This document shows positions 1,776-40,932 of a DNA stretch of 41,879 bases, piece after piece. The stretch comes from a virus: positions 1-41,879 of the IMG/VR virus record IMGVR_UViG_3300043775_004953; one strand, 5' to 3'. Made by a program: the position numbers and the translations under genes. Position 1 is the first letter of the stretch; every line of letters begins with the position of its first letter. The notes under the pieces were generated by a model. The model was not told the DNA's origin. It saw only the letters and a program-made list of their open reading frames with translations, and searched no databases.

Positions 1776-4046
1776 CTACTGGTTCCGCCGGCGCTTCTGC
1801 ATCTCAGAAAAGCTCATCCGCTCCTTACGGATCTCGGCCGTGCCTTCGATGCCTGGAAGAATCACGCCTTGCATGGACGCCGCAACCGCAGAACCAACCA
1901 AACAGTCAAACCAGTGGTTGTCGGGCTGCTCCGGTCGCTGCTTCCATTCGTCGACGCTCCGGCCGCGGGCCTCTGTCTTGACGAAGTACTCCGAGGTTAG
2001 ATGCTCGGCGAGCATACGATGGGTTTCGGCGTTGGTGCCAAAGAGCGAAAGGCAACCGCGATCGCCCATCGCGACTTGCAGGCGAGCGTTGATAAACGAC
2101 TTCCACCAGTTCGTATCGTAGACCACGTGGCGGATGGCCCGCTTACCGGCGACGTTGGGGATACGCCAGTTGAGCCCTACGCGATCACCTGGCCGGCGAC
2201 GATATTCGCTAAACGGCAAGCTCGATGCGCCCACGAAGCGACCGTGGCTGGGGATGATCACAGCGGCGTGCTTTGACTGCCGGCAGAACTGGTAGACCAC
2301 ATCCGTCGACTGGCCCCAGTTAGCATCGATCAGACAGCGTCCAATGCGCATCGCTGCACCATCGTCTCGTTGCCACTCGCGATCGAGTAGCTTCGACGTC
2401 AGCGATTCGAGGCCGGCGTAGATCGAGCCCTCGAGTCCGGTTCCAGTCGCTTCGGAGCTCAGCGTCTGGCGAGCCTCGCGCAGCGTGAAATACGGACGTT
2501 GCTGGTCAGGGTAGCAACCATAGTCGATCACATAACCGGTGAAGTCGTCCTCCCAAGCGGTGACCACATAGAATAGGAGCTTTTGCTGGACGTCGATGAA
2601 TGCGGTGAGATGGTTGGCACCGATCGATACCAAACCACGATCCATGCGGTTGATCTTGCTGGCGACCTCCTCTGGTTTAAGCATTCCGTCAACAACAGTT
2701 TCCGCTGGCAGAGGTTGGTTCTGATATTCGGCGAAGAACGCTGCTTCGTCTTGTAGCTTGAGATTCATCGCGTGTTGGATTGCAGAGAGTTCGTCGTAGT
2801 TGAATCGCTCCTGCCAAGCGATAACGGCACCCTCGTCCATCGCGGCTTGATTCTGACGATAGAACTCGGTGGCCGCTTCACCACCATCACCGCCACGCAT
2901 GCCTTCGGCGCGGATCTCGGCGTAACGTTCCCATAACGTTTCGTTCTTGGGGAACGCATAGACCATCTTTGTCCGCTCGCCATTCCATTCCGGATGCCGA
3001 TTGCGATCGAGGATATTGTCGGCCATATCACCCGGGCGAATCACGGTGCAGGGCATAATGCCCGAGATTTTCTTGCCCGGCCCGGCCAAGCCAAGGACTG
3101 CGCCGGCGAGTATGCTTTCGCGATTTGCGCACTGGGAAAGCGAACGAGCGCTCTCATCCGTTTGCGGGTCATCGAGTACCACGAGACTCGGACGGACGGT
3201 TCTGCCGTCGGGACGCTTGAACTTCATACCACGAATGCGACCGGTTAGGCCGGCGACTTTGATGATCGCTCCGCTCGCATTGCTGCCCTCGATCGTTGGG
3301 AGAACGACCTCCTTTGCAGTCCAACCGATCTGCGTGCGTTTACCTTTGTAGAGCTGGCCGTTCGCTCGATTGGAGATTCCATCGAGGGCTTGTATCGGAA
3401 AGCAAACCTCAGGGAAGTCGGCTAAGAGCAGCTCGTTGCTATCGAGTTCGGTTTTGATCGAGTCGAGCATATCACACGCGTGCCCTTCATCGCTGCCGAT
3501 CAAACATACGAAGTTACGATGCCCATAAAGTACCGCCCATATGCAAGCGACCTCAGCAATCGAACTCTTGCCGCTACCACGCGCCATCGCCAGTGCAAAC
3601 AAACCGCCATGCACAACCGCTTGCTCGATCTTCTCAATGACCTTGATGTGGTCCGGCGACCAAGCAAGATGGAACGTTAGTGGAAAGTAGGTCTCACAGA
3701 AGTATCGGAAGTCTCGCGACGCGCGATCTTTGCGATCTACGTTATCGACCTCTGGTAGTTCACCGATATCGCGACCGGCAAGCGCGAGCGCTGCATTACG
3801 TGCACGCGCTCGCTCCTTCATTGCATCGTAGGGATCGACACCGTTTGTCGTACGAGGCGTATGTCGTACGACATGCATCCATGCGCAATAGCGAAGCAAA
3901 TCGACGGTCTTGTTGTCGCCGATGCGTGCGCCGGCGCGTTGACGATGGCGATACAGTTGACGCTCGCTGATCACCTCGCCTAGCGGCGTTGAGTTCAGCA
4001 GTCGGCATAGCTCGCTTGGTTTTAGCTTCCTCGGATCACTCGCCAC
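1776..4046 (-). CDS. Phage terminase large subunit (GpA-like) with N-terminal accessory domain
   Basis: This is the DNA-packaging motor. I chose the GTG at 4046 because an AAGGAG sits 7 nt upstream; an in-frame ATG at 4100 has no such site and lies inside the upstream gene. Numbering from the GTG (756 aa), residues about 8-62 form a small domain also found in the HNH protein at 13217-14068. The ATPase has Walker A ARGSGKSS (155-162) and Walker B SLVVLDD (287-293). The C-terminal half has the nuclease signature AFIDVQ followed by FYVVTAWE, and LIDANWGQSTD, typical of GpA-type large subunits that cut DNA at packaging ends. Its start overlaps the end of the preceding 68-aa gene by 11 bp, suggesting translational coupling. 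Confidence 0.94.
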   Translation of the reverse strand: MASDPRKLKPSELCRLLNSTPLGEVISERQLYRHRQRAGARIGDNKTVDLLRYCAWMHVVRHTPRTTNGVDPYDAMKERARARNAALALAGRDIGELPEVDNVDRKDRASRDFRYFCETYFPLTFHLAWSPDHIKVIEKIEQAVVHGGLFALAMARGSGKSSIAEVACIWAVLYGHRNFVCLIGSDEGHACDMLDSIKTELDSNELLLADFPEVCFPIQALDGISNRANGQLYKGKRTQIGWTAKEVVLPTIEGSNASGAIIKVAGLTGRIRGMKFKRPDGRTVRPSLVVLDDPQTDESARSLSQCANRESILAGAVLGLAGPGKKISGIMPCTVIRPGDMADNILDRNRHPEWNGERTKMVYAFPKNETLWERYAEIRAEGMRGGDGGEAATEFYRQNQAAMDEGAVIAWQERFNYDELSAIQHAMNLKLQDEAAFFAEYQNQPLPAETVVDGMLKPEEVASKINRMDRGLVSIGANHLTAFIDVQQKLLFYVVTAWEDDFTGYVIDYGCYPDQQRPYFTLREARQTLSSEATGTGLEGSIYAGLESLTSKLLDREWQRDDGAAMRIGRCLIDANWGQSTDVVYQFCRQSKHAAVIIPSHGRFVGASSLPFSEYRRRPGDRVGLNWRIPNVAGKRAIRHVVYDTNWWKSFINARLQVAMGDRGCLSLFGTNAETHRMLAEHLTSEYFVKTEARGRSVDEWKQRPEQPDNHWFDCLVGSAVAASMQGVILPGIEGTAEIRKERMSFSEMQKRRRNQ

Positions 4047-4242
4047 GTCCCATCTCCTTTGCTTGCCACGCGCTGTAGTGCACAAGGTTGATCGTGCCAT
4101 CGGCGTTCACCGGCGCACCGCTTTGTATGTCGAGGCGGATCTTCTCTGGATCGATCCGCTCTCGGTATGCGGCCGCAAGTAGCTTCGCCGCTTGTTCGAC
4201 CTTAAGCCTCGTCGGATCGACCTGGCCCGTTCCTTCACTCAT
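4036..4242 (-). CDS. Small protein upstream of terminase, candidate small terminase subunit
   Basis: A 68-aa protein starting at an ATG preceded by GGAGG. It overlaps the terminase large subunit start by 11 bp, the usual place for a small terminase (DNA-recognition) subunit, though it is much shorter than typical TerS proteins. Its second half (GAPVNADGTINLVHYSAW) aligns with the shared domain in the large terminase and in the HNH protein at 13217-14068 (there APKINSGTKRVDLLAYCAW). I infer a related nucleic-acid or protein binding fold. No catalytic residues are apparent. Confidence 0.7.
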   Translation of the reverse strand: MSEGTGQVDPTRLKVEQAAKLLAAAYRERIDPEKIRLDIQSGAPVNADGTINLVHYSAWQAKEMGRGE

Positions 4243-4423
4243 CGCATTCCTCCGTGACTTGGCATCTCGAAACGTGGGGCCACCGTTTGCGCACGGTCGC
4301 GTTTTATCCGCATGTTCGCCTGGTTATGCGGAGCATGTTTGGACGCGACGGTGGCGTAATGTTGGGGCAACGGTGGCCTCTCAAAAAACATGGAAATTAC
4401 TGGGAAAAACATGCAAGACTTCG
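4243..4423. promoter_or_regulatory. Divergent intergenic region between packaging genes and small-gene array
   Basis: This gap separates the minus-strand packaging operon from the plus-strand array. It holds an inverted repeat CCGCAT/ATGCGG near 4309-4330 and a stretch related to the intergenic repeats at 5393-5613 and 7337-7557. In the plus reading frame, the region ahead of the repeat element encodes residues resembling those in the other copies (for example KTWKLLGKTC versus ETWKNMGKSC). No independent gene was seen. Promoters for both directions are expected but no clear sigma-70 pair is visible. Confidence 0.4.
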
Positions 4424-4464
4424 CTTGAGGTTCCTCGAAACGCATGGCTCATGTGTGTCATCGC
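4424..4464 (+). repeat. Gene-associated 41-bp element, copy 1
   Basis: CTTG, exactly 14 nt, then the 23-bp box that begins GCATGGCTCATGTGTG and ends YATCGC. It lies 52 bp before the amidoligase start codon. In the gene's frame it reads SLEVPRNAWLMCVIA and is open into the gene. Confidence 0.85.
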
Positions 4465-4516
4465 GACGCAGAAAACGCGACGCAAAACACACCTCGAACC
4501 ACAAAGGAACGCAACG

Positions 4517-5374
4517 ATGAACGCAAACGAAATCGCCTTCGGAATTGAATTCGAAACCACCCTCCCAAGCACCGACAACACACCGATCGGTCCCTACCAC
4601 AGCGGATACCAAGTACCTTGGCTGCCAGCCGGATGGAAAGCAGAACGCGATGGAAGCATCCGACCCGAGAACACCTCTCGCAAAGGATGCGAGTTTGTAA
4701 GCCCAATACTCAAAGGGGCTGAAGGCGTACGCCAGATCGAGAACGCGATCGACCAAATCAACGCTCGCGGGGGCCGAGTAAATTCGAGCTGCGGTCTGCA
4801 CATAACGGTTAGCTGGAACGGAGACGCAGCCGCCTTGGCAAGATTGATTTCCTTGGTCGGTAACCACGAACGAGCGATCTATGCCTCGACCGGAACCCGC
4901 AAACGCGAACAAATGATGTACGCCAAGCGAATCAAACAATACGGCAACAAAGACAACGCCAAGAGCCGATGCGAATCGGATCGCTACCACCTGCTGAACT
5001 TGACCCACCTGACCCGCGGCAAGAACCGAATCGAATTCCGAGCCTTCGGAGGAACGCTTAACAAGACCAAGGTGGTCGGATACCTGATGATGGTTTTGGG
5101 TTTGGTTGAACTCGCCCTCAATACCAAACGATGCAGCGAGTGGGATTACATCAAGAAGGAAGGAACTAAGAGTTGCTGGGATCGCCCTGGTGCCGGCCTT
5201 GGCGAGACCGAACTCAACCGATTGTTCTACCGACTCGGATGGACCAAAGGTTGGTACAAGGGTGCCCTTCGCGATAAGGTCTACGGAGAGGTCGCCTGCG
5301 AAACCAAACCGGAATGGAAGACGATCAAGACCAAACTCCTCGAGCTCGCCCGCAAATACGACCGCGCGGCCTAA
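4517..5374 (+). CDS. Amidoligase family protein
   Basis: A 285-aa protein of the Amidoligase_2 type, relatives of glutamine synthetase-like and ATP-grasp ligases predicted to form amide bonds in peptides or small metabolites. Visible family signatures: FGIEFE at 8-13, AERDGSI at 42-48, GCEFVSP at 57-63, CGLHITV at 92-98 (metal/ATP site His), YHLLNL, and RIEFRAFGGTLN. I start at the ATG with AAAGGA 8 nt upstream. The frame is open upstream to 4088, but that extension covers the repeat element and the packaging promoter region. It is the first and largest gene of the plus-strand array. A hairpin terminator follows at 5389-5424. The substrate is unknown; phage amidoligases might modify a host peptide or the cell wall. 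Confidence 0.88.
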   Translation: MNANEIAFGIEFETTLPSTDNTPIGPYHSGYQVPWLPAGWKAERDGSIRPENTSRKGCEFVSPILKGAEGVRQIENAIDQINARGGRVNSSCGLHITVSWNGDAAALARLISLVGNHERAIYASTGTRKREQMMYAKRIKQYGNKDNAKSRCESDRYHLLNLTHLTRGKNRIEFRAFGGTLNKTKVVGYLMMVLGLVELALNTKRCSEWDYIKKEGTKSCWDRPGAGLGETELNRLFYRLGWTKGWYKGALRDKVYGEVACETKPEWKTIKTKLLELARKYDRAA

Positions 5375-5388
5375 ACCGCTACCACATA

Positions 5389-5424
5389 GAACGCCGCGAA
5401 CGGAATCGCGGCGTTCTTTCGTTT
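5389..5424 (+). terminator. Rho-independent terminator after amidoligase gene
   Basis: An 11-bp perfect stem (GAACGCCGCGA / TCGCGGCGTTC) with a 6-nt loop ACGGAA, followed by TTTCGTTT. A similar hairpin recurs at 7335-7358 because the whole intergenic segment is duplicated. Confidence 0.75.
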
Positions 5425-5613
5425 GGTCGCGACATTTGCACGCTGTCGCGTTCGTACTAGCATCCTCGATCACGTACCCAACATGCAGAACGACGCGACA
5501 CGGGCGAACGTTGCGAACCGTCGGGCGTTTCCAGAAACATGGAAAAACATGCAGAAAAGCCGGTGGAATCGGCTTGAGCTTATTCAAACCGCATGGCTCA
5601 TGTGTGTCATCAC
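5393..5613 (+). repeat. 221-bp intergenic repeat, copy A
   Basis: This stretch aligns without any net insertion or deletion to 7337-7557. Read in the frame of the array genes, both copies encode similar peptides (AAFFRLVAT, ATRANV, ETWKNM, then the TAWLMCVI block), and many differences are at third codon positions. Copy A has a short ORF starting GTG at 5423 and ending TAA at 5617 just after the block. Whether it is translated is unknown. Confidence 0.7.
5573..5613 (+). repeat. Gene-associated 41-bp element, copy 2
   Basis: CTTG-N14-box. It lies 40 bp before the start codon at 5654. It differs from the others in reading ACG instead of GCN in the last codon. In frame: RLELIQTAWLMCVIT, then a TAA stop. 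Confidence 0.85.
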
Positions 5614-5653
5614 GTAAACGATTCCATTCCCTTTCCGAAACGGAGAAACACAG

Positions 5654-5947
5654 ATGAACGACACAACCACCACTAGCGCCGAACAAGCGATCAAGGACGA
5701 ACTGCGACGCCTCGGATGGATGATCCCCGACGCGCAGCGCCGCCTCAACGAGCATGCCCAAACGATGCTCAGACGAGCCGAACGAGCGGTCAAGGACATG
5801 GAAGCCATGATGGCCAACCAGCCTTGCAGCATGAGTTGGGTGGACTTCGCTGAAAGCGACCTGCGAAACGCGCGCGAGGCAAAAGCCCAGCTTGAGTTCC
5901 TCTACCAACAACGGACCATGCTCGAGTTCTTCTTGAGAGAGGATTAG
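5654..5947 (+). CDS. Small helical protein of unknown function
   Basis: A 97-aa charged protein, predicted almost entirely helical and possibly coiled coil from about residue 24 to 95 (DAQRRLNEHAQTMLRRAERAVKDMEAMM...LRNAREAKAQLEFLYQQR). The start is supported by GGAGA 8 nt upstream. No domain recognised. It is the second gene of the repeat-associated array and is followed by a strong hairpin terminator at 5964-5997, so it is probably its own transcription unit. Confidence 0.8.
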   Translation: MNDTTTTSAEQAIKDELRRLGWMIPDAQRRLNEHAQTMLRRAERAVKDMEAMMANQPCSMSWVDFAESDLRNAREAKAQLEFLYQQRTMLEFFLRED

Positions 5948-5963
5948 CGAGCGCCGCGGATTC

Positions 5964-5997
5964 GCCGGCGGCACAGCGCCGCCGGCAGAATCTTTTT
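5964..5997 (+). terminator. Rho-independent terminator
   Basis: A perfect 9-bp GC stem (GCCGGCGGC / GCCGCCGGC) with loop ACAGC, then AGAATCTTTTT. It sits 16 bp after the stop of the preceding gene and just before the next repeat element. Confidence 0.8.
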
Positions 5998-6016
5998 GAA
6001 ATGTTTTCGGACTCGG

Positions 6017-6057
6017 CTTGCTGTTCGTGGAACCGCATGGCTCATGTGTGTTATCGC
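6017..6057 (+). repeat. Gene-associated 41-bp element, copy 3
   Basis: CTTG-N14-box, 43 bp before the start at 6101. In frame: RLAVRGTAWLMCVIA, open into the gene. Confidence 0.85.
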
Positions 6058-6100
6058 AAAACGGCAAACCATTTCCAAACGCTTCAAGGAGAAGACAAAG

Positions 6101-6394
6101 ATGAATCTCAACTACGACCGGCTCGCTGCCATCAAGACCGCCTTGGCTAATATGCAACCAGGAAGCGCACGCGACGTACTCGCGACGTTCAACGACGCCT
6201 GTGGATCGCTGACCCGCCTGGTTGAAACGCTTCAGTGCGAGGGATGCGGAGTGAGAGGTGAACCCGCAACCGCGATTCAAGAAGAACTGAACCTCGCTGA
6301 GGAGGCCCTGAATATTCTGTGCGAAAGCGCGTTGCCGGTGATCATTCTTCAAGAGCGGGCGACGAATCCCAATACCGAGCTCGCCGACGACTAG
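6101..6394 (+). CDS. Small array protein, paralogue family A
   Basis: A 97-aa predicted helical protein, start supported by AAGGAG 9 nt upstream. Its N-terminal 75 residues align with the protein at 7601-7876 (AIKTALANM versus AIRTAFKQM, LTRLVETL versus LKRLADSL, IQEELNLAEEALNIL versus LEAELRMFEDAIDAL, LPVII versus LPEAI) and more weakly with that at 7052-7309. This indicates duplication within the array. Four cysteines are present but no obvious zinc motif. Function unknown. An in-frame extension upstream would run through the repeat element; I treat it as leader. Confidence 0.8.
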   Translation: MNLNYDRLAAIKTALANMQPGSARDVLATFNDACGSLTRLVETLQCEGCGVRGEPATAIQEELNLAEEALNILCESALPVIILQERATNPNTELADD

Positions 6395-6412
6395 GCCGAC
6401 GCGGACGGCATT

Positions 6413-6437
6413 ACCGAACACGGAGGTTCGGTTTCCC
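6413..6437 (+). terminator. Weak terminator-like hairpin
   Basis: A 7-bp stem ACCGAAC/GTTCGGT with a 6-nt loop, followed by TTCCCTT. It sits about 20 bp after the stop of the preceding gene. Weak, because the T-tract is interrupted. Confidence 0.4.
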
Positions 6438-6564
6438 TTGGTCTTCAAAACTGTGCCCCTCGTTTCGTCACTGTGGGCATGTTTCGTGTATGTAACTAAT
6501 AGTGGCCAATGGGCAAATGCGACGCAACTGTGGGCGTTTTGTGCGCTTCTTGGTGGGTTGGAAA

Positions 6565-6598
6565 AACATTCAGAATTCTGACGCAATCTCTGAATGTT
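6565..6598 (+). repeat. 10-bp inverted repeat ahead of element copy 4
   Basis: AACATTCAGA and its exact complement TCTGAATGTT, separated by 14 nt, end 3 bp before the CTTG of the repeat element. Other element copies have less perfect hairpins in the same place (for example copy 2 GCCG/CGGC). It could be a terminator for the previous unit or part of a control region. Confidence 0.5.
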
Positions 6599-6601
6599 CG
6601 G

Positions 6602-6642
6602 CTTGAGCTTTCGCAAACCGCATGGCTCATGTGTGTTATCGC
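6602..6642 (+). repeat. Gene-associated 41-bp element, copy 4
   Basis: CTTG-N14-box, 37 bp before the start at 6680. In frame: RLELSQTAWLMCVIA, open into the gene. Confidence 0.85.
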
Positions 6643-6679
6643 AAGAACGATTCCCAACCCCAAACCAAGAGACACACAG

Positions 6680-6895
6680 ATGCTCAACGGAACCCAAGAG
6701 ATAACCGCCGACGATTGCTACTTCGTACACCTTGCCACAACGGAGCTCCTCGAAGAACTCCGAGAGGCACTGGAACAGATGACTATCCCAACCGAGGGCA
6801 AGAAGGAAATGTTGCGGTTCTTTCGACGAATGGATGACCTGCACGACGCACTCGACAGCCTCACGAGCCGGTTCCCTGTAAAGAGAAACGCATAA
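6680..6895 (+). CDS. Small array protein, paralogue family B
   Basis: A 71-aa acidic, predicted helical protein. The segment LLEELREALEQMTI...KEMLRFFRRMDDLHDALDSLTSRF resembles the protein at 8402-8650 (ISDLYAAIEEMPI...MKQFFDELADVQATAAKLAQHF), so the two look like duplicates. The start is preceded by AAGAGA 7 nt upstream. No known domain; function unknown. Confidence 0.75.
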   Translation: MLNGTQEITADDCYFVHLATTELLEELREALEQMTIPTEGKKEMLRFFRRMDDLHDALDSLTSRFPVKRNA

Positions 6896-6970
6896 CTGCC
6901 AACCTTTCAACAAAGAACTTGGCAAGGACGCCAAGTTCCGAAAAACATTCTGGAATCTTCCCGGAATCGG

Positions 6971-7011
6971 CTTGCTGTGTTTGGAACCGCATGGCTCATG
7001 TGTGTCATCGC
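6971..7011 (+). repeat. Gene-associated 41-bp element, copy 5
   Basis: CTTG-N14-box, 40 bp before the start at 7052. In frame: RLAVFGTAWLMCVIA, followed at once by TAA. Confidence 0.85.
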
Positions 7012-7051
7012 GTAAACGATTCATACACCTTTCCGAAACGGAGACACAAAC

Positions 7052-7309
7052 ATGACCAACGCAAACAACCCACACGCAGCTACGGACGCAACCCTTCGCC
7101 AAATCTTCAAGACGATGGACGCCCACCAGGCCCAAGAGATTCGCGAAGCCTATTACAAGGCGATCGAGGGTTTGATGACCCTGGCAGAAACCCTCGAGGT
7201 CGCCGACGCACAACAAACACCCAGCGCCGGCCCGCTTCTCACCGAACACTTCAACGCGGTCCAAGCCCTGGACGCAATGAAGAACAGCCGCCTCGGAAAG
7301 ATCCTCTAA
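7052..7309 (+). CDS. Small array protein, distant family A member
   Basis: An 85-aa predicted helical protein, start supported by GGAGA. The stretch LRQIFKTMDAHQAQEIREAYYKAIEGLMTLAETLE is similar in pattern to the N-terminal halves of the proteins at 6101 and 7601. No recognised domain. It is followed by the duplicated hairpin and intergenic repeat copy B. Confidence 0.75.
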   Translation: MTNANNPHAATDATLRQIFKTMDAHQAQEIREAYYKAIEGLMTLAETLEVADAQQTPSAGPLLTEHFNAVQALDAMKNSRLGKIL

Positions 7310-7334
7310 ACCACAGACCAGCGGAATGCCACGG

Positions 7335-7366
7335 ACGCCGCGAACGGAAGCGCGGCGTTCTTCCGC
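7335..7366 (+). terminator. Hairpin after 7052-7309 gene
   Basis: An 8-bp stem ACGCCGCG/CGCGGCGT, counterpart of the terminator at 5389-5424. The following T-tract (TCTTCCGCTT) is poorer, so termination is less certain. Confidence 0.5.
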
Positions 7367-7557
7367 TTGGTCGCGACACTCGCCCACAGTCGCGTTCTTG
7401 TGAGCACCTTCGACCAAGGACCCAACATTCAAAACATCGCAACACGGGCCAACGTTGGGGCCCGTAAGGCCTCCCGAGAAACATGGAAGAACATGGGAAA
7501 AAGCTGCTGAAATCGGCTTGCTGCCGGTAGAACCGCATGGCTCATGTGTGTCATCGC
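7337..7557 (+). repeat. 221-bp intergenic repeat, copy B
   Basis: The partner of 5393-5613, ungapped. In the array frame it encodes the AAFFRLVAT, ATRANV, ETWKNM and TAWLMCVI blocks, but a TGA interrupts it at 7508-7510, shortly before the 41-bp element. Confidence 0.7.
7517..7557 (+). repeat. Gene-associated 41-bp element, copy 6
   Basis: CTTG-N14-box, 43 bp before the start at 7601. In frame: RLAAGRTAWLMCVIA, open into the gene. Confidence 0.85.
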
Positions 7558-7600
7558 CCAGCGACCAACCGCTTTCACTACGCAAGAGGAGAACAAACCG

Positions 7601-7876
7601 ATGTCCCGAACCAACGCCAGACACACTGCAATCAGAACCGCCTTCAAACAAATGCCTCGCGCTACCGCGCTGGATATCTGCGACGACTATCGCGAAGTGG
7701 TCACACGGTTGAAGCGACTGGCCGACAGCTTGGCGGGCGCGTTCGTGGTAGCCAGCGGAGATTCGGCTCGCGTCCTGGAAGCAGAGCTCCGCATGTTCGA
7801 AGACGCCATCGATGCCCTTGCTGGCAGTATGTTGCCCGAAGCGATCGACGAATGTTTGCCTTCCAAAGAATGCTGA
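7601..7876 (+). CDS. Small array protein, paralogue family A
   Basis: A 91-aa predicted helical protein, a close paralogue of the product of 6101-6394 over most of its length. The start ATG has AGAGGAG 9 nt upstream. It has two cysteines near the C-terminus. Function unknown; the pair suggests tandem duplication of gene plus upstream element followed by divergence. Confidence 0.8.
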   Translation: MSRTNARHTAIRTAFKQMPRATALDICDDYREVVTRLKRLADSLAGAFVVASGDSARVLEAELRMFEDAIDALAGSMLPEAIDECLPSKEC

Positions 7877-7906
7877 AAAAACCTGCTGAAAACATTGAAA
7901 GGACCG

Positions 7907-7947
7907 CTTGAGGTTATCCGAACCGCATGGCTCATGTGTGTTATCGC
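7907..7947 (+). repeat. Gene-associated 41-bp element, copy 7
   Basis: CTTG-N14-box, 37 bp before the start at 7985. In frame: PLEVIRTAWLMCVIA, then TAA. The N14 part also forms a short GGTT/AACC hairpin. Confidence 0.85.
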
Positions 7948-7984
7948 ATAACCAGTTTTCATTCACCCAAACGGAGAACCAAAC

Positions 7985-8257
7985 ATGAATCTCGACACCC
8001 TGATCGAAATCCTCAACGACTACCGCGAAGAGTTCGGAGGCGACGCCGAAGTGCGGCTGATGACCCAGCAGAACTGGCCCTTCGAAAACCGGATCTGCGG
8101 CGTTACCAGCGGACGCGACATGAACGATGTGTCGGACGATGAGGATGAAGACGACGACGCTCAAGACGTTGCCGACGACAACACGGTCTACATCGTTGAA
8201 GGCGGACAGATCTGCTACGGCAGCAAGCGGGCTTGGGAAACGTGTCGCGACAGTTGA
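7985..8257 (+). CDS. Conserved small protein with acidic insert
   Basis: A 90-aa protein. The N-terminal half (MNLDTLIEILNDYREEFGGDAEVRLMTQQNWPFENRICGV) resembles a small protein family I have seen in phages and many bacteria, usually of similar length and unknown function. Residues about 45-61 are a run of Asp/Glu (DVSDDEDEDDDAQDVADD), and the C-terminus ends VYIVEGGQICYGSKRAWE. The start has GGAGA 8 nt upstream. The acidic stretch could mimic DNA or bind a basic host protein; that is speculation. Confidence 0.85.
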   Translation: MNLDTLIEILNDYREEFGGDAEVRLMTQQNWPFENRICGVTSGRDMNDVSDDEDEDDDAQDVADDNTVYIVEGGQICYGSKRAWETCRDS

Positions 8258-8321
8258 TGGCAACACGCCGATGCGCCGGGGGAAAGGTTCTGGAAAACCT
8301 TCAGAATCTTTTCCCCTTCGG

Positions 8322-8362
8322 CTTGATGCGGTTTGAACCGCATGGCTCATGTGTGTCATCGC
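8322..8362 (+). repeat. Gene-associated 41-bp element, copy 8
   Basis: CTTG-N14-box, 39 bp before the start at 8402. The N14 and box form a perfect hairpin ATGCGGTT/AACCGCAT with a 2-nt loop. This is the only copy whose box is out of frame with the array genes; its own frame also carries a TGA five codons before the ATG of the box. Confidence 0.85.
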
Positions 8363-8401
8363 ATACGACATTCCAAACACAAACAAACGGAGATCACCAC
8401 G

Positions 8402-8650
8402 ATGCCAACTATGACCAACCGACCACGCCTGACCTCGGCCCAGTTCCTCGGCGCACACCGACGAGCGCTCGAGACGATCAGCGACCTGTACGCAGCGATC
8501 GAAGAGATGCCGATCCTCGCCGCTTCCGACCAATCGACCATGAAACAGTTCTTCGACGAACTGGCTGATGTGCAGGCTACCGCAGCGAAGCTCGCCCAAC
8601 ATTTCCGCACGCAAGTATGCACCGAAGAAAAGAATTCGAATTCCTTTTGA
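8402..8650 (+). CDS. Small array protein, paralogue family B
   Basis: An 82-aa predicted helical protein resembling the product of 6680-6895 in its central 50 residues. The start has GGAGA upstream. An in-frame ATG inside the repeat element (8342) would add 20 residues; I prefer the internal start by analogy with the other units. No known domain. Confidence 0.75.
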   Translation: MPTMTNRPRLTSAQFLGAHRRALETISDLYAAIEEMPILAASDQSTMKQFFDELADVQATAAKLAQHFRTQVCTEEKNSNSF

Positions 8651-8656
8651 ATCCGG

Positions 8657-8697
8657 CTTGATGCGGTTCAAACCGCATGGCTCATGTGTGTTAACGC
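8657..8697 (+). repeat. Gene-associated 41-bp element, copy 9
   Basis: CTTG-N14-box, 37 bp before the start at 8735. Contains the same ATGCGGTT/AACCGCAT hairpin as copy 8. One box position differs (AAC for ATC). In frame: RLDAVQTAWLMCVNA, open into the gene. Confidence 0.85.
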
Positions 8698-8734
8698 GAA
8701 AACGATTCACCAACCAAACAACGGAGACCAGCAG

Positions 8735-9049
8735 ATGACCCAACACGACCTCGACCTGACGATCACCAAGATCAGCAATCGCAACCGCGGTGCTGGCGGG
8801 TCTTGGGTGCAAGGCAAGATCAACGACGAATACCGCTTCGATGCTTTGGTCTTCGCCGATCACGCAGATCACGAATCGTACGAACTTAACCAGAGCAAGA
8901 TTTCGAAGCTTTGGGTTCAACGCCTGGCCGACCGCAAAGTGATGTTCAACTTCGATCGCGGGTTGGATGTGCCGGCGGTCAATACGGAGGTGCAGGTGAT
9001 TGTCGACTTTCTCTGCGAGGGATTGTCGGACTTGGTCTTTGGTCAATAA
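8735..9049 (+). CDS. Conserved phage protein of unknown function (possibly DUF7678)
   Basis: A 104-aa protein with a conserved-looking core: GGSWVQGKINDEYRFDALVFADHADHESYEL, then ISKLWVQRLADRKVMFNFDRG and VDFLCEGL. This pattern fits a small domain family of unknown function that I associate with DUF7678, but I cannot confirm the name here. The start has GGAGA 7 nt upstream. It is the last gene carrying the clear 41-bp element. Confidence 0.85.
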   Translation: MTQHDLDLTITKISNRNRGAGGSWVQGKINDEYRFDALVFADHADHESYELNQSKISKLWVQRLADRKVMFNFDRGLDVPAVNTEVQVIVDFLCEGLSDLVFGQ

Positions 9050-9142
9050 GCCGAAACGCAGCACGGACGCGCGTAGTCGATCGGTGGTTCGATCGGCCTG
9101 ACGATGGCAGCCAACCACGAACACAGAATTGGAGATACCAAG

Positions 9143-9712
9143 ATGAAGAAGGCAGAAGTAAAGATTGGTGGCAAGTACTACGCGAACGTTTCGGGCAATC
9201 GCTGCGAGATTCGGATCGATGCCGAGAAGCCTCGAGGCGGCTGGGACGCAACCAACCTCGCGACCGGTAAGAAGATTCTTATCAAGAGCGCCCAACGCCT
9301 GCAGGGTGAAGTGGGTGCGAAACGCGGACGCGCGAAGGTCACCATCGAAGGTAACGTAACGGTGGTTGAGAACGAACCAGCCATCGTCGAAACTATCGGA
9401 GGCGAATCGTCCACAGCGGTTGCGGTTCTCAAGAAGCCACGCAAGGCAAAGGCGGCATCCACCGAGACGGCTGACGCCGGCGAGAAGCGATTGAGCTGCG
9501 TCGCTGCGGCCTTGAAGGTTCTCAGCGAATCGAGCGAACCGATGAACGCCCAAGAGTTGATCACCGCGATGGAAGCCAAGGGCTACTGGACCAGCCCCGG
9601 TGGCAAGACGCCCCACGCGACCTTGTACAGCGCGATCCTTCGCGACCTCGCCAAGGGTGACGACAGCAAGTTCGTGAAGACCGAACGCGGACGCTTCACC
9701 GTTCGAGGCTAG
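9143..9712 (+). CDS. HARE-HTH domain protein
   Basis: A 189-aa protein. The N-terminal ~55 residues (KKAEVKIGGKYYANVSGNRCEIRIDAEKPRGGWDATNLATGKKILIKSAQRL) look like a small beta-rich module common in such proteins. A low-complexity linker follows, and the last ~75 residues are a HARE-HTH winged helix (AALKVLSESSEPMNAQELITAMEAKGYW, GGKTPHATLYSAILRDLA, RGRFTVRG), a fold seen in RNA polymerase delta subunit and chromatin or restriction factors. It probably binds DNA or the transcription machinery. The ATG at 9143 has GGAGA 8 nt upstream; an upstream ATG at 9104 lacks this. A 12-bp gap to the next gene suggests an operon. Confidence 0.88.
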   Translation: MKKAEVKIGGKYYANVSGNRCEIRIDAEKPRGGWDATNLATGKKILIKSAQRLQGEVGAKRGRAKVTIEGNVTVVENEPAIVETIGGESSTAVAVLKKPRKAKAASTETADAGEKRLSCVAAALKVLSESSEPMNAQELITAMEAKGYWTSPGGKTPHATLYSAILRDLAKGDDSKFVKTERGRFTVRG

Positions 9713-9724
9713 GAGACCCAGCCG

Positions 9725-9958
9725 GTGAAACACTTTTACGATTTGCGAACGGTGGATGACCTGGCCGACGGCGAGATCGCAACGCCAGAGCCAGGCATCA
9801 CCTACGACCTGCGAACGATTAACAATCGCAAGCTCAACGTCGGCAGCGTGGTGGACGTGATCCGCCAAGGTCCCACGCTGTTCGCCCGAACCACTAGCGG
9901 AGATTCGATCGCTGTCTCCGGCAACGGCGCTGCCATCTTGGTACCGCACGACTTGTAG
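9725..9958 (+). CDS. Small protein, unknown function
   Basis: A 77-aa protein beginning at GTG, with GGAGA about 8 nt upstream. It contains an internal echo, YDLRTVDDL near residue 5 and YDLRTINN near residue 27. The rest is predicted beta-rich (VGSVVDVIRQGPTLFARTTSGDSIAVSGNGAAILV). It is 12 bp after the HARE-HTH gene and likely co-transcribed with it. No family recognised. Confidence 0.75.
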   Translation: MKHFYDLRTVDDLADGEIATPEPGITYDLRTINNRKLNVGSVVDVIRQGPTLFARTTSGDSIAVSGNGAAILVPHDL

Positions 9959-9991
9959 ACAAGCCCGAAGCACGGAACGCTTCCCACCAAT

Positions 9992-10026
9992 CGCCCCACG
10001 TTTACACCGTGTGGGCGTTTTCTCGT
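9992..10026 (+). terminator. Rho-independent terminator
   Basis: A stem CGCCCCACG/CGTG-T-GGGCG with one bulged T and a 7-nt loop, followed by TTTTCTCGTT. It is placed 33 bp after the stop of the 9725-9958 gene. Confidence 0.7.
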
Positions 10027-10123
10027 TGATGCGAACATAAGCCCAGCACGTAACACAACGCGACACGTCGCGAAATCGCGGTTCGCCGGCGCAGCCACAT
10101 GTTTGGAAGAAATTCGCAAAACA

Positions 10124-10190
10124 TGCTCGCATGTTGGCTTGATGTTTTTGCGATTCGCTGGCTGACTGTTGAGGATCGTCTTTCGTTTCT
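10124..10190 (+). repeat. Degenerate, element-like intergenic segment
   Basis: The region retains CATGTTGGCTTGATG, then a GC-rich stretch where the 23-bp box would be, but only fragments of the box survive (GCTGGCTGACTGT). It may be a decayed tenth copy preceding the gene at 10211. The similarity is weak. Confidence 0.3.
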
Positions 10191-10210
10191 CCAACAACCA
10201 GGAACCAACC

Positions 10211-10426
10211 ATGGCCAAACCCACCCTTGAGCCGGCAGCTCCCTACGAGAACCTGCACCTCGTTGCCCGCGACTACCTCGATCAACTGCGTCAATCGCTC
10301 GACGCCTTGCAACCACCAGACGACCCAGCACTGCGTTGGCGGAACGTTCACACGATGGCCCAGGTCAACGCACGCTTGGCTCAAGCCGGCGAACTGCTCG
10401 ACAAGCTCACCACCACTACGAAATGA
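10211..10426 (+). CDS. Small helical protein, unknown function
   Basis: A 71-aa predicted helical protein (YLDQLRQSLDALQPPDDPALRWRNVHTMAQVNARLAQAGELLDKL). The start ATG follows AGGAA with 7 nt spacing. The helical pattern resembles family B of the array but not enough to claim homology. It is 12 bp from the next gene, so it begins a three-gene operon. Confidence 0.75.
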   Translation: MAKPTLEPAAPYENLHLVARDYLDQLRQSLDALQPPDDPALRWRNVHTMAQVNARLAQAGELLDKLTTTTK

Positions 10427-10438
10427 AACAAGGAACCC

Positions 10439-10669
10439 ATGACTATGCAGAAACGATTGAAGAAAGGCGATCGCATCCGCTTGGTGTCGATGCCGCAAGA
10501 TCCCGACCCGATTGCCGTTGGATCGCTGGGGACCGTCGTTGAAGTCCACGAACACCGCGACTGGACGCAGGTCGATGTCGATTGGGACAACGGCCGCTCC
10601 CTCATGCTGACGATGCCCGACGATTGTGTCGCCATCGTCGAACCCAACGACCACGAACCATCGAAGTAA
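10439..10669 (+). CDS. DUF4314 domain protein
   Basis: A 76-aa protein matching the DUF4314 pattern: LKKGDRIRLVSMPQDPDPIAVGSLGTVVEV, then QVDVDWDNGRSLML and a C-terminal VAIVEP. DUF4314 is a small SH3-like beta-barrel family common in phages and mobile elements; no biochemical role is known to me. It is the middle gene of a tight operon with 12-bp gaps on both sides. Confidence 0.88.
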   Translation: MTMQKRLKKGDRIRLVSMPQDPDPIAVGSLGTVVEVHEHRDWTQVDVDWDNGRSLMLTMPDDCVAIVEPNDHEPSK

Positions 10670-10681
10670 GGAAACCAACCT

Positions 10682-10999
10682 ATGTCCACAAGAGCAACGA
10701 TTGCCTGCAAGCAAGAAGACGGTCGCTACGCAGCGATCTACCTTCACTTCGATGGCTACCAAGACCACGCCGGCAGAGTCCTTAAAGAACATTACACCAC
10801 TATCGAGTCGGCACGAACGCTGGTCGCAGGCGGCGATATTCGATCGCTTGCTAACGACGGAACGCCCGAGCGCTTCACCGACGGTAATCGCACGGTTGTC
10901 ATGCCGACGCGTGCAGCTCTCCATGAGTTCGCGAGGAACTGCGGCACCGAGTATGTTTACATTTTCGAGGACGACGCTTGGCATTGTCATAGGCTTTGA
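10682..10999 (+). CDS. Conserved phage protein, unknown function
   Basis: A 105-aa protein starting MSTRATIACKQEDGRYAAIYLHFDGYQDHAGRVLKEHYT and ending CGTEYVYIFEDDAWHCH. The MSTRATI start, the YxHxDGY motif and the C-terminal YVYxFEDxxW are typical of a widespread small phage protein family with no assigned function. It is the last gene of the plus-strand array, converging with the HNH gene at 11006 across only 6 bp. No terminator hairpin is visible between them. Confidence 0.85.
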   Translation: MSTRATIACKQEDGRYAAIYLHFDGYQDHAGRVLKEHYTTIESARTLVAGGDIRSLANDGTPERFTDGNRTVVMPTRAALHEFARNCGTEYVYIFEDDAWHCHRL

Positions 11000-11005
11000 T
11001 GGGTT

Positions 11006-11428
11006 TTACTGATTCGATGAGTTTTGTTTTGCACGAAGTTTTCGATTACGTTTCGCAATAACGGCGAGGTCCGATAGACAGCGCTTGCACGCCCCCATCA
11101 CGCCGTTGCGTCCCTTGTATTCGTAGAACTCCGTGTCGACTGGCCGATACCATTGGCAGCGCCGACAGCGTTTCAACCAGCGGCTGCCAATTCGTATGCA
11201 ACCGCTGTGAATCCGCTTGTGCTCCAAGCGAGTCACCAGCTTGAGGTTCTCAAGTCGGTTATCGAGCTTGTCACCGTTGCGATGGTGTAGCTCCATGCCT
11301 TCTGGAATAGGCCCGTGATGCGACTCCCAGACGATCACGTGCTCAAACCGCTGCTTGCGATCCTTGCATGTGATTCGTCGATAGCCGAACGGCGTGATTG
11401 AACCTCTGGCCGATGACCGTTGCGTCAT
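11006..11428 (-). CDS. HNH homing-type endonuclease
   Basis: A 140-aa protein with an HNH_3-like core: GYRRITCKDRKQRFEHVIVWESHHGPIPEGMELHHRNGDKLDNRLENLKLVTRLEHKRIHSG (residues about 15-75). The C-terminal zinc ribbon runs from CRRC to CKRC. The HH-N-N-H pattern gives the metal-dependent nicking site. Its ATGA overlaps the stop of the ParB-methyltransferase gene by 4 bp, indicating translational coupling. It may act as a selfish nuclease or in DNA processing; sequence alone cannot separate these. Confidence 0.9.
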   Translation of the reverse strand: MTQRSSARGSITPFGYRRITCKDRKQRFEHVIVWESHHGPIPEGMELHHRNGDKLDNRLENLKLVTRLEHKRIHSGCIRIGSRWLKRCRRCQWYRPVDTEFYEYKGRNGVMGACKRCLSDLAVIAKRNRKLRAKQNSSNQ

Positions 11429-12807
11429 CGCATGTTCTCCTCTCGCGCCTTCATGGGGATTGGAGATTCACCCGTTCGTTCCAAGACCGCAGGAATACCT
11501 GTGAAACGCTGGAAGCGATCAACGATGACATCGCAATACAGCGTGTCGAGTTCCATCAAGAACGCGTTGCGACCGCATTGCTCAGCGCCGATCAGCGTTG
11601 AACCACTGCCACCGAACAGGTCGAGAACGTTCTCGCCTTGTACCGACGAATACTGCATCGCGCGGACAGCGAGTTCGGCCGGCTTGCCCGTTAAATGTTC
11701 AAGCTGTTGCGGAGGGATCTTCTTGACATGCCAAAGGTCCGTGATGTTCTTCGGTCCATAGAACTTATGGCCCGCTCCTTCTTTCCATCCGTAGAAGGCC
11801 CACTCATGAGCGCCCATGAAATCTTTTCGCGTCAAAACGGGATGCTGCTTGTCCCAGATGATCGACTGCGAAAAGTACAGCCCATGCTTCTTTAGCACGG
11901 GAGGATAGTTGCCGCAGTTGGCGTAGCCACCCCAGATGTAGAAGCAGCGACCTGGTAGCAACACGCGAGCAATGTTTCCAAACCAATCATCAAGCAGTTT
12001 GTCGAACGCCTCGTCGCTGACGAAGTCATTCGCGAGCGGCCGATCTTTCGGACGCAGCTTCTTGTGAGTCGCTGCGTGTTTTGGTTTGCCCGTTTCGTGA
12101 TCGACACCAAACGAAGCGGCGTTTCCCTGTCCTTGCTTCAGTCGGCCCGATGCCGCATCGTTCGAGAACGAAGACAAACCCGCAGCGATTGCGTTGTTCG
12201 ATCGAGGCTCCACTTTGACGTTGTAGGGTGGATCTGTATTGCACAAGTGGATCGCAGCGCCGGCCAAGAGTCGATCCAAGTCTGCCGGCGAGGATGAGTC
12301 CCCACAGAGTAGCCGATGGTTTCCGAGGATCCAAAGATCGCCTGGCTGGGTAACCGCTTCGTCTGGCGGCTCCGGCACATCGTCTGGATCGGTGAGCCCT
12401 TCGTTGACGCCGGTGTCGAGCAGCTTGGCGAGTTCATCCGCATCGAAGCCGAGCAGACCAAGGTCGTATCCGCCTTCGCCCAGTTCCTTCAGCTCGATCG
12501 GCAAGAGATCGTAATTCCAATCTGCCAGGTCTGCCGACTGGTTGTCAGCGATGCGGTAAGCTCGGATCTTCTCCGGCGATAGATCGGTCGCAACATGCAC
12601 TGGCACTTGGTCGACGCCAAGTTTCTGCGCGGCCTTGTATCGCGTGTGACCGCAGATGATGACTCCATCGGAATCAACAACGATCGGTTGTCTCCAACCG
12701 TATTCACGAATCGACGCTGCAACTGCATCGACTGCGTTGTCGTTCGTTCGCGGGTTGTTGGGGTAAGGACGGATGTCTCCGATACTTCGTAGTTCAATCG
12801 TTAGCAT
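11425..12807 (-). CDS. ParB-N-domain / DNA methyltransferase fusion
   Basis: A 460-aa phage-type methyltransferase. Residues about 1-95 are a ParB/sulfiredoxin-like domain (IRPYPNNPRTN, ICGHTRYKAAQKLG with GHTR at 53-56). Residues about 155-440 are an N4/N6-type methyltransferase with DPPY at 192-195 and FGGSGST (SAM site) at 398-404. That order corresponds to the beta class. Such orphan enzymes methylate phage DNA and may protect it from restriction. The start is supported by AGAGGAA. It forms an operon with the HNH gene and overlaps the upstream zinc-ribbon gene by 7 bp. Confidence 0.93.
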   Translation of the reverse strand: MLTIELRSIGDIRPYPNNPRTNDNAVDAVAASIREYGWRQPIVVDSDGVIICGHTRYKAAQKLGVDQVPVHVATDLSPEKIRAYRIADNQSADLADWNYDLLPIELKELGEGGYDLGLLGFDADELAKLLDTGVNEGLTDPDDVPEPPDEAVTQPGDLWILGNHRLLCGDSSSPADLDRLLAGAAIHLCNTDPPYNVKVEPRSNNAIAAGLSSFSNDAASGRLKQGQGNAASFGVDHETGKPKHAATHKKLRPKDRPLANDFVSDEAFDKLLDDWFGNIARVLLPGRCFYIWGGYANCGNYPPVLKKHGLYFSQSIIWDKQHPVLTRKDFMGAHEWAFYGWKEGAGHKFYGPKNITDLWHVKKIPPQQLEHLTGKPAELAVRAMQYSSVQGENVLDLFGGSGSTLIGAEQCGRNAFLMELDTLYCDVIVDRFQRFTGIPAVLERTGESPIPMKAREENMR

Positions 12808-14068: not shown

Positions 14069-14326
14069 GTTCCCTTTCCTACACTCGGACAAAACATAGA
14101 AACTGTGCCTACTAGCGCGGCTGTTCCCGCGGCCCTGAGTTGTGGCACTGGGGCCGGAGTACCTAAAGCTTTTCTGTTGCCTGCGTGCCATAGTGGCAGA
14201 CGCATCGTGGGGCCACTGTTGGCCCTCTGACGCGTCCTCCTGCTGGTTGGGCGTTGCACTCGAATGAGGTGCAACGGTTGCGACGTGCGCTAACGTGTGC
14301 GATGACTTGCGTTCTCGATTGGTTAC
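14069..14326. other. Intergenic region with short inverted repeats
   Basis: A gap between two minus-strand genes. It contains small perfect palindromes such as TGCCA-TAG-TGGCA and GGGCCA-CTGT-TGGCCC. Open frames crossing it lack ribosome sites and known motifs. It may hold the promoter for the HNH gene; I cannot place it. Confidence 0.3.
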
Positions 14327-14797: not shown

Positions 14798-14850
14798 ACC
14801 GAGGTTGCCTTTCGATTTTGGGGTGATTGAGAAATGTGGTTTGAGGCATT

Positions 14851-15183
14851 CCCGGACGTCCGGACGTTTAGGACGTGTTTCCCTATACGATCTACATACG
14901 GGGAAAAACACGTTCGTTTACCCTCCCAACAACTAACTCCTGACAAACGTCCGGAACGTCCGGAACGTCCTAAGCCACCAATGAAAATGCTGGGTAAAAA
15001 GTTAGGACGTTTGGAAATCATTACGTCCGGGAAATGTCCTAAACGTCCGGAAGTGGACACCGAGCTTCGCACGTGGAAGCAGCGAAATTGATTGAACGGC
15101 ACGACACTATTGGCGTTTGTGATATTGATCATGAAAACAGCTCCAATTCCCGGACGTTCCCGGACGTCTGGTTTTCAACGTCC
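14851..15183. repeat. Iteron-like cluster of AACGTCCGG/GGACGT repeats
   Basis: About a dozen copies of GGACGT or its complement ACGTCC lie within 333 bp: 14854, 14862, 14871, then three in tandem 9-bp steps at 14947, 14956 and 14965 (AACGTCCGG), then 15005, 15023, 15043, 15152, 15162 and 15178, plus a variant ATGTCC at 15034. Several share flanks such as TTAGGACGT/ACGTCCTAA. The cluster fills the gap after the primase-helicase gene and runs into its last codons. Direct plus inverted short repeats next to a replicative primase are typical of replication origins or repressor sites. I lean to an origin. Confidence 0.65.
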
Positions 15184-21520: not shown

Positions 21521-21560
21521 TCTATCTGTTGGAATACCCGGTACCCGGGTGAGTTGACGG
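21521..21560 (-). promoter_or_regulatory. Two-block promoter-like motif, copy 2
   Basis: On the minus strand: CCGTCA, 18 nt, TATTCCAACAGATAGA. It starts immediately after the sigma-factor stop codon and points at the gene starting at 21468. Nearly identical to copy 1, including GGGTACCGGG in the spacer. Confidence 0.65.
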
Positions 21561-40892: not shown

Positions 40893-40932
40893 TCTATCTG
40901 TAGGAATACCCGGCGCGAGTTCGAAATGACGG
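40893..40932 (-). promoter_or_regulatory. Two-block promoter-like motif, copy 3
   Basis: On the minus strand: CCGTCA, 18 nt, TATTCCTACAGATAGA, identical in both blocks to copy 1. It would drive the recombinase cassette and shows that this end belongs with the phage genes at 1-22 kb. Confidence 0.6.

Follow-up and report, generated by a model that had tools for sequence, protein, structure and literature searches.

The window analysed here is the whole of the IMG/VR virus record IMGVR_UViG_3300043775_004953, a stretch of 41,879 bp with a GpA-type terminase, a lambda-type portal, and a serine integrase. It carries a rightward array of 14 genes, nine of which are each preceded by a copy of one strictly spaced element, and the same block is open on the other strand, where a stop-free reverse frame of 2,197 codons (4397–10990, minus strand) lies opposite all 14 genes and all nine elements. 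The element and its confinement to such arrays, the locking of the block into one frame, the depletion of reverse stops, the lack of amino-acid constraint, and the overlaps at the junctions are evident at the level of sequence. The best joint explanation, which can be regarded as reasonably probable, is that each element would be a rightward promoter specific to this phage family, and that the reverse frame would act as a bridge for a leftward operon.

Read from 10990 down to 4397 on the minus strand, the three frames contain 0, 96, and 57 stops, respectively. Besides the genes, the open frame covers the intergenic DNA and the elements. All 14 array genes lie in a single frame, in the register where reverse stops correspond to the sense codons TTA, CTA, and TCA, and none of these codons occurs in any of the 14. 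From the codon usage of the other genes of the phage, approximately 30 reverse stops would be expected in the genes and 26 in the spacers (simulation minima of 15 and 11), whereas none is seen in either. The array genes are real, with Pfam domains and a third codon position that evolves fastest. The window combines two features of an ambigram, a codon-aligned reverse frame and the absence of reverse stops along its whole length.

The same state is found in relatives of the window class, which make up most of the family. Their arrays contain 4 reverse-stop codons in 37,964, compared with 629 in 34,007 in the terminase, portal, and methylase genes of the same loci; both totals include some near-duplicate loci, and a small diverse set was used for the spacers. 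In the spacers of these 12 diverse loci (13.6 kb), reverse stops number 0, 148, and 129 by frame. Sense stops in the same spacers occur in all frames (127, 74, and 100), which rules out readthrough of the sense strand as the cause of the frame lock. Of the distinct spacers compared, all except one have a length that is a multiple of three, irrespective of the genes that they separate. Single indels scored between close pairs are a poorer measure of the frame lock than total spacer length: no more than 84 of the 159 gaps have a length divisible by three, since gaps offset one another or are put in the wrong place during alignment. Gene frames are 100% modal in nearly all window-class relatives, and the longest open reverse frame reaches 2,399 codons (locus L026), with up to 7.2 kb open.

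A second set of relatives shares the element and the synteny, but its array genes are in different frames, and no frame is free of reverse stops (42, 55, and 47 in the spacers). These arrays belong mostly to marine hosts (SV_7m_r, TBK1r, Rubripirellula, and some Rhodopirellula arrays), and a few intermediate relatives have about 3.5–4.8 kb open. Because the two classes were delimited by eye on the very counts by which they are compared, part of the contrast follows from their definition; the window result and the internal comparison of frames are independent of this division. The relatives' contigs are partly metagenomic, and as the relatives share ancestry, counts across them are not independent trials. 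In the amidoligase tree, which has open forks, the open state appears to either side of the midpoint root and the other state in nested positions, suggesting that the open reverse frame was lost in the second class.

Judged from the substitution pattern, the openness of the reverse frame and the positions of its start and end are what is conserved, rather than its amino-acid sequence. In close pairs, spacers outside the elements have equal substitution rates across the three reverse codon positions (0.0705, 0.0715, and 0.0646). Four-fold sites in the array genes evolve only slightly slower than those in flanking genes, likewise in the class without the open frame, and the reverse product contains no Pfam domain. 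At its upstream end, the frame opens where the methylase or HNH gene stops, and a start codon follows 8–28 nt later in most loci, sometimes after AGGAGG. In the window, the HNH-type gene (11006–11428, minus strand) ends 15 nt before the ATG of the reverse frame, and is preceded by the ParB/N6-N4 DNA methylase gene (11425–12807, minus strand), which in most relatives is situated directly upstream of the reverse frame. At the downstream end, the stop of the frame and the start of the following leftward gene share 4 or 8 nt (ATGA, ATGAGTGA) in more than 15 loci, some of them near-duplicates, and in other loci 61–154 nt separate the two. The genes that follow in the window are a small gene (4036–4242, minus strand), whose start overlaps the reverse-frame stop in many relatives, and the terminase large subunit, next in the leftward operon (1776–4100, minus strand). 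Such junctions are the layout of a cistron in an operon. Together with an openness that is kept without amino-acid conservation, they favour a translational bridge, and it can be inferred that translation itself is selected.

In the proposed mechanism, the array would run against a leftward operon of ParB-methylase, small gene, and terminase. In most lineages, the block is held in a single frame, and the removal of reverse stops extends to the intergenic DNA and the elements. Ribosomes on the leftward transcript would read the block as one very long, otherwise meaningless frame, and this read-through would deliver coupled transcription and translation to the terminase genes. Protection from Rho would be the obvious reason for the bridge, which would give it an anti-polarity purpose, and a bridge of this kind would be a use of the ambigram principle not described before. 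The chances are about even for the wider claim that double-stranded DNA phages keep a multi-gene block readable in both directions, 14 genes with their promoters and spacers being frame-locked and purged of reverse stops, and the late leftward operon being translated through the inverted array by ribosomes that make a meaningless giant polypeptide. Several points weigh against the bridge. The reverse frame of the window ends 154 nt before the next gene, and the second-class relatives keep the synteny without the open frame, so that a bridge is dispensable. The conserved leader before the leftward small gene may carry a promoter of its own, and a nonsense polypeptide of 2,000 codons would be costly.

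Other explanations of the openness fare less well. Codon bias combined with tandem duplication of units divisible by three might leave the frame open as a by-product, given that arrays grow and shrink by whole units and that second-class relatives are also low in TTA, CTA, and TCA (0.39% against 1.29%). This explanation is highly improbable and already contradicted: the intergenic DNA has the same absence of stops in that frame only, spacers between unrelated gene pairs are also divisible by three, and the three codons are present in ordinary numbers in three single inverted genes found elsewhere in this genome (5/274, 24/667, and 10/283). The uninterrupted length in L026, with start and stop coupled to the neighbours, would suit a functional giant protein. 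Such a protein is quite unlikely in view of the missing Pfam domain, the equal intergenic rates at the three reverse codon positions, a length that varies freely as units are gained or lost, and its absence from the second class. The least improbable of these rivals, though still rather unlikely, is that the open frame protects RNA, with ribosomes on both strands preventing duplexes or decay of overlapping transcripts, as proposed for narnaviruses. The block obeys the same rules as those viruses, and rightward promoters together with leftward transcription would yield complementary RNAs, but the coupled junctions with the leftward neighbours point to operon continuity instead.

In ambigrammatic narnaviruses, a codon-aligned reverse frame is kept open by removal of UUA, CUA, and UCA (DeRisi 2019, PMC6884476; Dudas 2021, PMC8155312; Retallack 2021, PMC8316113). 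Their reverse product is seemingly not a functional protein, and an intact reverse frame is needed for persistence (PMC6884476; PMC8155312; PMC8316113). The phage block resembles them in the alignment of the reverse frame, in the three codons removed, and in a reverse product that is not conserved as a protein. However, narnaviruses are RNA viruses of eukaryotes with a single gene of about 3 kb or a short segment, whereas the block belongs to a double-stranded DNA phage, comprises as many as 14 genes together with the DNA between them, spans up to 7.2 kb, and is coupled to neighbouring genes at its junctions. It is not a narnavirus member, as the terminase, portal, and serine integrase show, and follows the same rule independently. 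In bacteria, antisense overlapping genes such as pop opposite ompA also have an open frame opposite an annotated gene, but they are single short genes (603 bp) for which functional proteins are claimed (PMC7103648), and the block spans up to 14 genes. Within the open-licence literature, no earlier report of a two-way-readable block in phages was found, and the layout is known so far only from some RNA viruses.

The element occurs in the window as nine perfect matches to CTTG-N14-GCATGGCTCATGTGTG, all on the plus strand. There are none with 1–3 mismatches, and 100 shuffled sequences contain none, which rules out a chance origin. By pattern and profile, the copies lie at 4424–4464 (upstream part with phased A-tracts 4384–4423, before the amidoligase gene, 93.7 bits), 5573–5613 (upstream part 5533–5572), 6017–6057 (5977–6016), 6602–6642 (6562–6601), 6971–7011 (6931–6970), 7517–7557 (7477–7516), 7907–7947 (7867–7906, overlapping the end of the preceding gene), 8322–8362 (8282–8321), and 8657–8697 (8617–8656, mostly within the preceding gene), each beginning with CTTG exactly where the original prediction had placed it. 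Between the end of the 23-bp box and the start codon there are 52, 40, 43, 37, 40, 43, 37, 39, and 37 nt for copies 1–9, in agreement with the predicted 37–52 nt, and a Shine-Dalgarno-like sequence is present at each of the nine starts, as had been claimed. The spacings between copies are mostly multiples of three because the gene block is frame-locked.

The predicted length of 41 bp proved too short, as conservation spans about -58 to +22 relative to the box. The element is approximately 80 bp long and consists of three upstream A-tracts about 10.5 bp apart, followed by CTTG-N14-CATGGCTCATGTGTG. The A-rich stretches are centred near -56, -45, and -35; GCTTG occupies -19 to -15, and is followed by (A/C)(T/G)G, a variable part, the nearly invariant CATGGCTCATGTGTG, and TYA(T/A)CGC. 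The box ending YATCGC that was first described is present in seven of the nine copies, the copies at 5573 and 8657 ending in CATCAC and TAACGC, respectively. The upstream part contributes about 20 bits of signal, and its A frequency has an autocorrelation of 0.58 at 10 nt, 0.53 at 11 nt, and 0.24 at 21 nt. Such helical phasing is a property of the DNA, of the kind known from UP elements or bent promoters. With a profile built from 77 non-redundant copies, the nine window copies score 77–94 bits. A tenth, degenerate copy, CTTG-N14-CGCTGGCTGACTGTTG, is located at about 10138–10178 (plus strand, box at 10156), before the gene at 10208–10426; it scores -10.9, compared with -30.8 for the next best plus-strand site and a shuffled maximum of -13.2.

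The original prediction also described terminator-like hairpins between several units. Strong ones do follow some genes, such as the intrinsic-terminator-like hairpins after the amidoligase gene (5388–5417) and after gene 2 (5964–5986), both found on the plus strand by a terminator scan, but the 12 terminator-like sites in the region barely differ from the shuffled expectation of 11.1. Some junctions are too short for a terminator, such as the one where the CTTG at 8657 follows the stop at 8650 by 7 nt. A spacer of 186 bp is duplicated at 79% identity (5391–5576 and 7335–7520), including a terminator-like hairpin and the upstream part of the element, which indicates that units were duplicated together with their spacers.

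Related phages and planctomycete genomes, which the prediction had proposed to search, contain the element in about 60 loci, which belong to a single (pro)phage family of Pirellulaceae. The 17-mer GCATGGCTCATGTGTGT matches 73 viral-contig stretches and 38 genome-contig stretches; about eight lone matches without CTTG are taken as chance. Apart from these, element loci with a stated origin are all planctomycete, mostly Pirellulaceae (Rhodopirellula, Rubripirellula, Stieleria, Aporhodopirellula, Roseiconus, and Pirellula metagenome-assembled genomes), which bears out the earlier guess of a planctomycete host. In eight whole host genomes searched with up to three mismatches, the element forms one to four arrays per genome, and outside the arrays, matches with three mismatches are as rare as those of the reversed control; a host-wide promoter is thereby ruled out. 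About 14 gene families are preceded by the element, and the distance from box to start is 49–78 nt in nearly all of 244 cases. In the common synteny, portal, terminase, and small gene run leftward, the array runs rightward, and the ParB/N6-N4-methylase gene again runs leftward; the array usually opens with the amidoligase gene and contains a HARE-HTH gene. Arrays gain and lose whole element-to-element units (L026 has an extra MAGHTPQQYES... unit compared with the window), and the element may accordingly be a site of homologous exchange. No close cultured phage relative was found, the terminase being less than 60% identical to every record, and no relevant literature on planctomycete prophages with this element was found.

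The fixed spacing, the helical phasing, and the absence of RNA covariation favour a dedicated promoter, whose activity is predicted from these features. The phased A-tracts could act as bent DNA or as an UP element, TTG(A/C)(T/G)G could be -35-like, and a non-canonical core, CATGGCTCATGTGTG, would replace the TATAAT box. The -35 candidate matches TTGACA at 3–4 of 6 positions, and its TTG is nearly invariant. With TTGMTG as the -35 and a 17-bp spacer, the -10 would fall at CTCATG and the start at a conserved A (83%) 18 bases into the box, the place expected for a transcription start; this placement is geometry, not proof. A start there would give a 5' untranslated region (UTR) of about 40–60 nt with the Shine-Dalgarno sequence, and each small gene or short gene run would have its own transcript. 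As no TATAAT-like hexamer is present and the element is nearly absent elsewhere in the host genomes, a dedicated, phage- or array-specific factor probably recognises it. The delta subunit of RNA polymerase likewise contains a HARE-HTH domain, and for this reason the HARE-HTH protein of the arrays is a candidate trans-acting factor, a guess from co-occurrence. Two points tell against promoter activity: at the 17-bp position there is CTCATG instead of a TATAAT-like -10, and a consensus scan finds no promoter there; in addition, elements without a preceding terminator are read into from upstream.

Of the earlier proposals, a promoter for a phage-directed polymerase is the best supported in its promoter half, by the A-tracts in helical phase, the fixed TTG-to-box distance, and the lack of structural covariation. 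Its polymerase half gains no support, as no polymerase or sigma factor is found among the Pfam and PHROGs matches of the larger open reading frames (ORFs) and array genes, although not all small ORFs were scanned and the record is possibly incomplete. A sigma-54 promoter was rejected on the sequence, GG and GC being at the wrong distance. A translated leader, another of the early proposals, is ruled out, since just 47 of 244 box ATGs share the frame of the gene that follows and the leader ORFs vary erratically in length. The third proposal, a control element in the 5' UTR, is disfavoured. It would make the element an RNA device (riboswitch, thermosensor, or protein-binding leader) with transcription starting further upstream, and it could draw on the fairly constant distance ahead of the Shine-Dalgarno sequence and on an N14 part that is often palindromic, such as ATGCGGTTTGAACCGCAT at 8326. 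However, RNAalifold predicts no pairs in the 77 non-redundant copies, and the N14 palindrome lacks clear covariation, its pairing being about as expected from base composition and independent columns, with a slight excess only at -7/-4 and -9/-2. There is no Rfam match either, and a structured RNA element was rejected on these results, as far as such searches can show. The signal also extends 40 bp upstream of CTTG with helical phasing, and in copy 9 this upstream part lies inside the preceding gene, which makes the device an unlikely explanation. A similarly low probability is given to the reading in which the element is an operator bound by a phage repressor or silencer and an ordinary promoter lies at another place between the genes. 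The box has CATG-N3-CATG symmetry, and the serine integrase suggests that the phage is probably temperate; nevertheless, the whole 80-bp arrangement with its fixed TTG-box spacing is conserved, not merely a short operator, and the consensus scan finds no sigma-70-like promoter close to the copies.

As a promoter, the element would have partial parallels. Lytic phages such as T4 or SPO1 have multi-copy early promoters that match the host sigma-70 consensus; one promoter is likewise repeated here ahead of many small genes, but its core is CATGGCTCATGTGTG and not that consensus. Morons are accessory prophage genes with their own promoter and terminator. The array resembles them in small genes that face against the neighbouring phage operon, with a promoter-like element at nine genes and strong terminator-like hairpins after a few; it differs in forming about nine units with one shared element, a constant place, and an open reverse frame. 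The start-associated sequences (SAS) of cluster K mycobacteriophages are 13 bp long (GGGATAGGAGCCC), lie 3–7 bp before the start, and have been assigned a probable role in translation (Pope et al. 2011, PMC3203893). Like the SAS, the element is an asymmetric sequence repeated many times with little variation, ahead of small non-structural genes that differ from copy to copy, and it is essentially absent from host genomes (PMC3203893). Unlike them, it measures about 80 bp, is located 49–78 nt upstream, and has phased A-tracts and an unrelated sequence, and the original prediction was right that position and sequence differ.

Transcription in planctomycete phages has hardly been studied; the element would define a class of promoters for them, and its array would be a ready-made promoter set for planctomycete hosts. 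The frame-locked block provides a natural example in which DNA is under selection for an open reverse frame over several kb, including non-coding parts, with the sister lineages that lack the open frame serving as controls. The narnavirus question, whether translation itself or its product is selected, becomes testable in bacteria, as cultured hosts carry at least partial examples; Rubripirellula obstinata and Rhodopirellula rubra are among the cultured hosts with arrays. Meanwhile, gene callers may report a spurious protein of 2,000 residues at the reverse frame.

The array genes, all on the plus strand, begin with an amidoligase-like gene (Amidoligase_2, Pfam scan) at 4517–5374. It is followed by genes at 5654–5947 (codon and evolution analysis), 6101–6394 and 6680–6895 (codon analysis), 7052–7309 (protein clustering and evolution analysis), 7601–7876 (in the largest, partly paralogous cluster of element-led proteins), 7985–8257 (found in 40 loci), and 8402–8650, the last three by protein clustering. 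The DUF7678 gene at 8735–9049 (Pfam) is the last with a good element. Then come the HARE-HTH protein gene at 9143–9712 (Pfam, E = 4.7e-13) and four further genes in the same frame (9725–9958, 10208–10426, 10439–10669, and 10682–10999). None of the array genes matches a defence or anti-defence family in PADLOC or NCBIfam. A type II hammerhead ribozyme (9049–9116, plus strand) is situated between the DUF7678 gene and the HARE-HTH gene, where it would cut the array transcript just ahead of the latter. A search of 14 related loci, some with the open reverse frame and some lacking it, found a ribozyme of this family in every one, again immediately before the HARE-HTH gene (L071, L029, L048, L056, L084, L010, L091, L102, L103, L023, L118, L087, L052, and L022).

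Outside the array, the leader before the leftward small gene (4243–4400), in relatives as well, contains the repeated motifs GTGGCCCCACG and GCGAC...GTCGC-like dyads. A 35-bp motif of this leader recurs at 14201–14235, ahead of a leftward gene starting at 14191, possibly as a member of a family of leftward promoters or operators. A 40-bp repeat (TCTATCTGTWGGAATACCCGG...) occurs three times, at 1700–1739, 21521–21560, and 40893–40932, with intervals of about 19–20 kb. In addition, CGTCCGGAA repeats and inverted repeats cluster at 14836–15052, a possible operator or origin.

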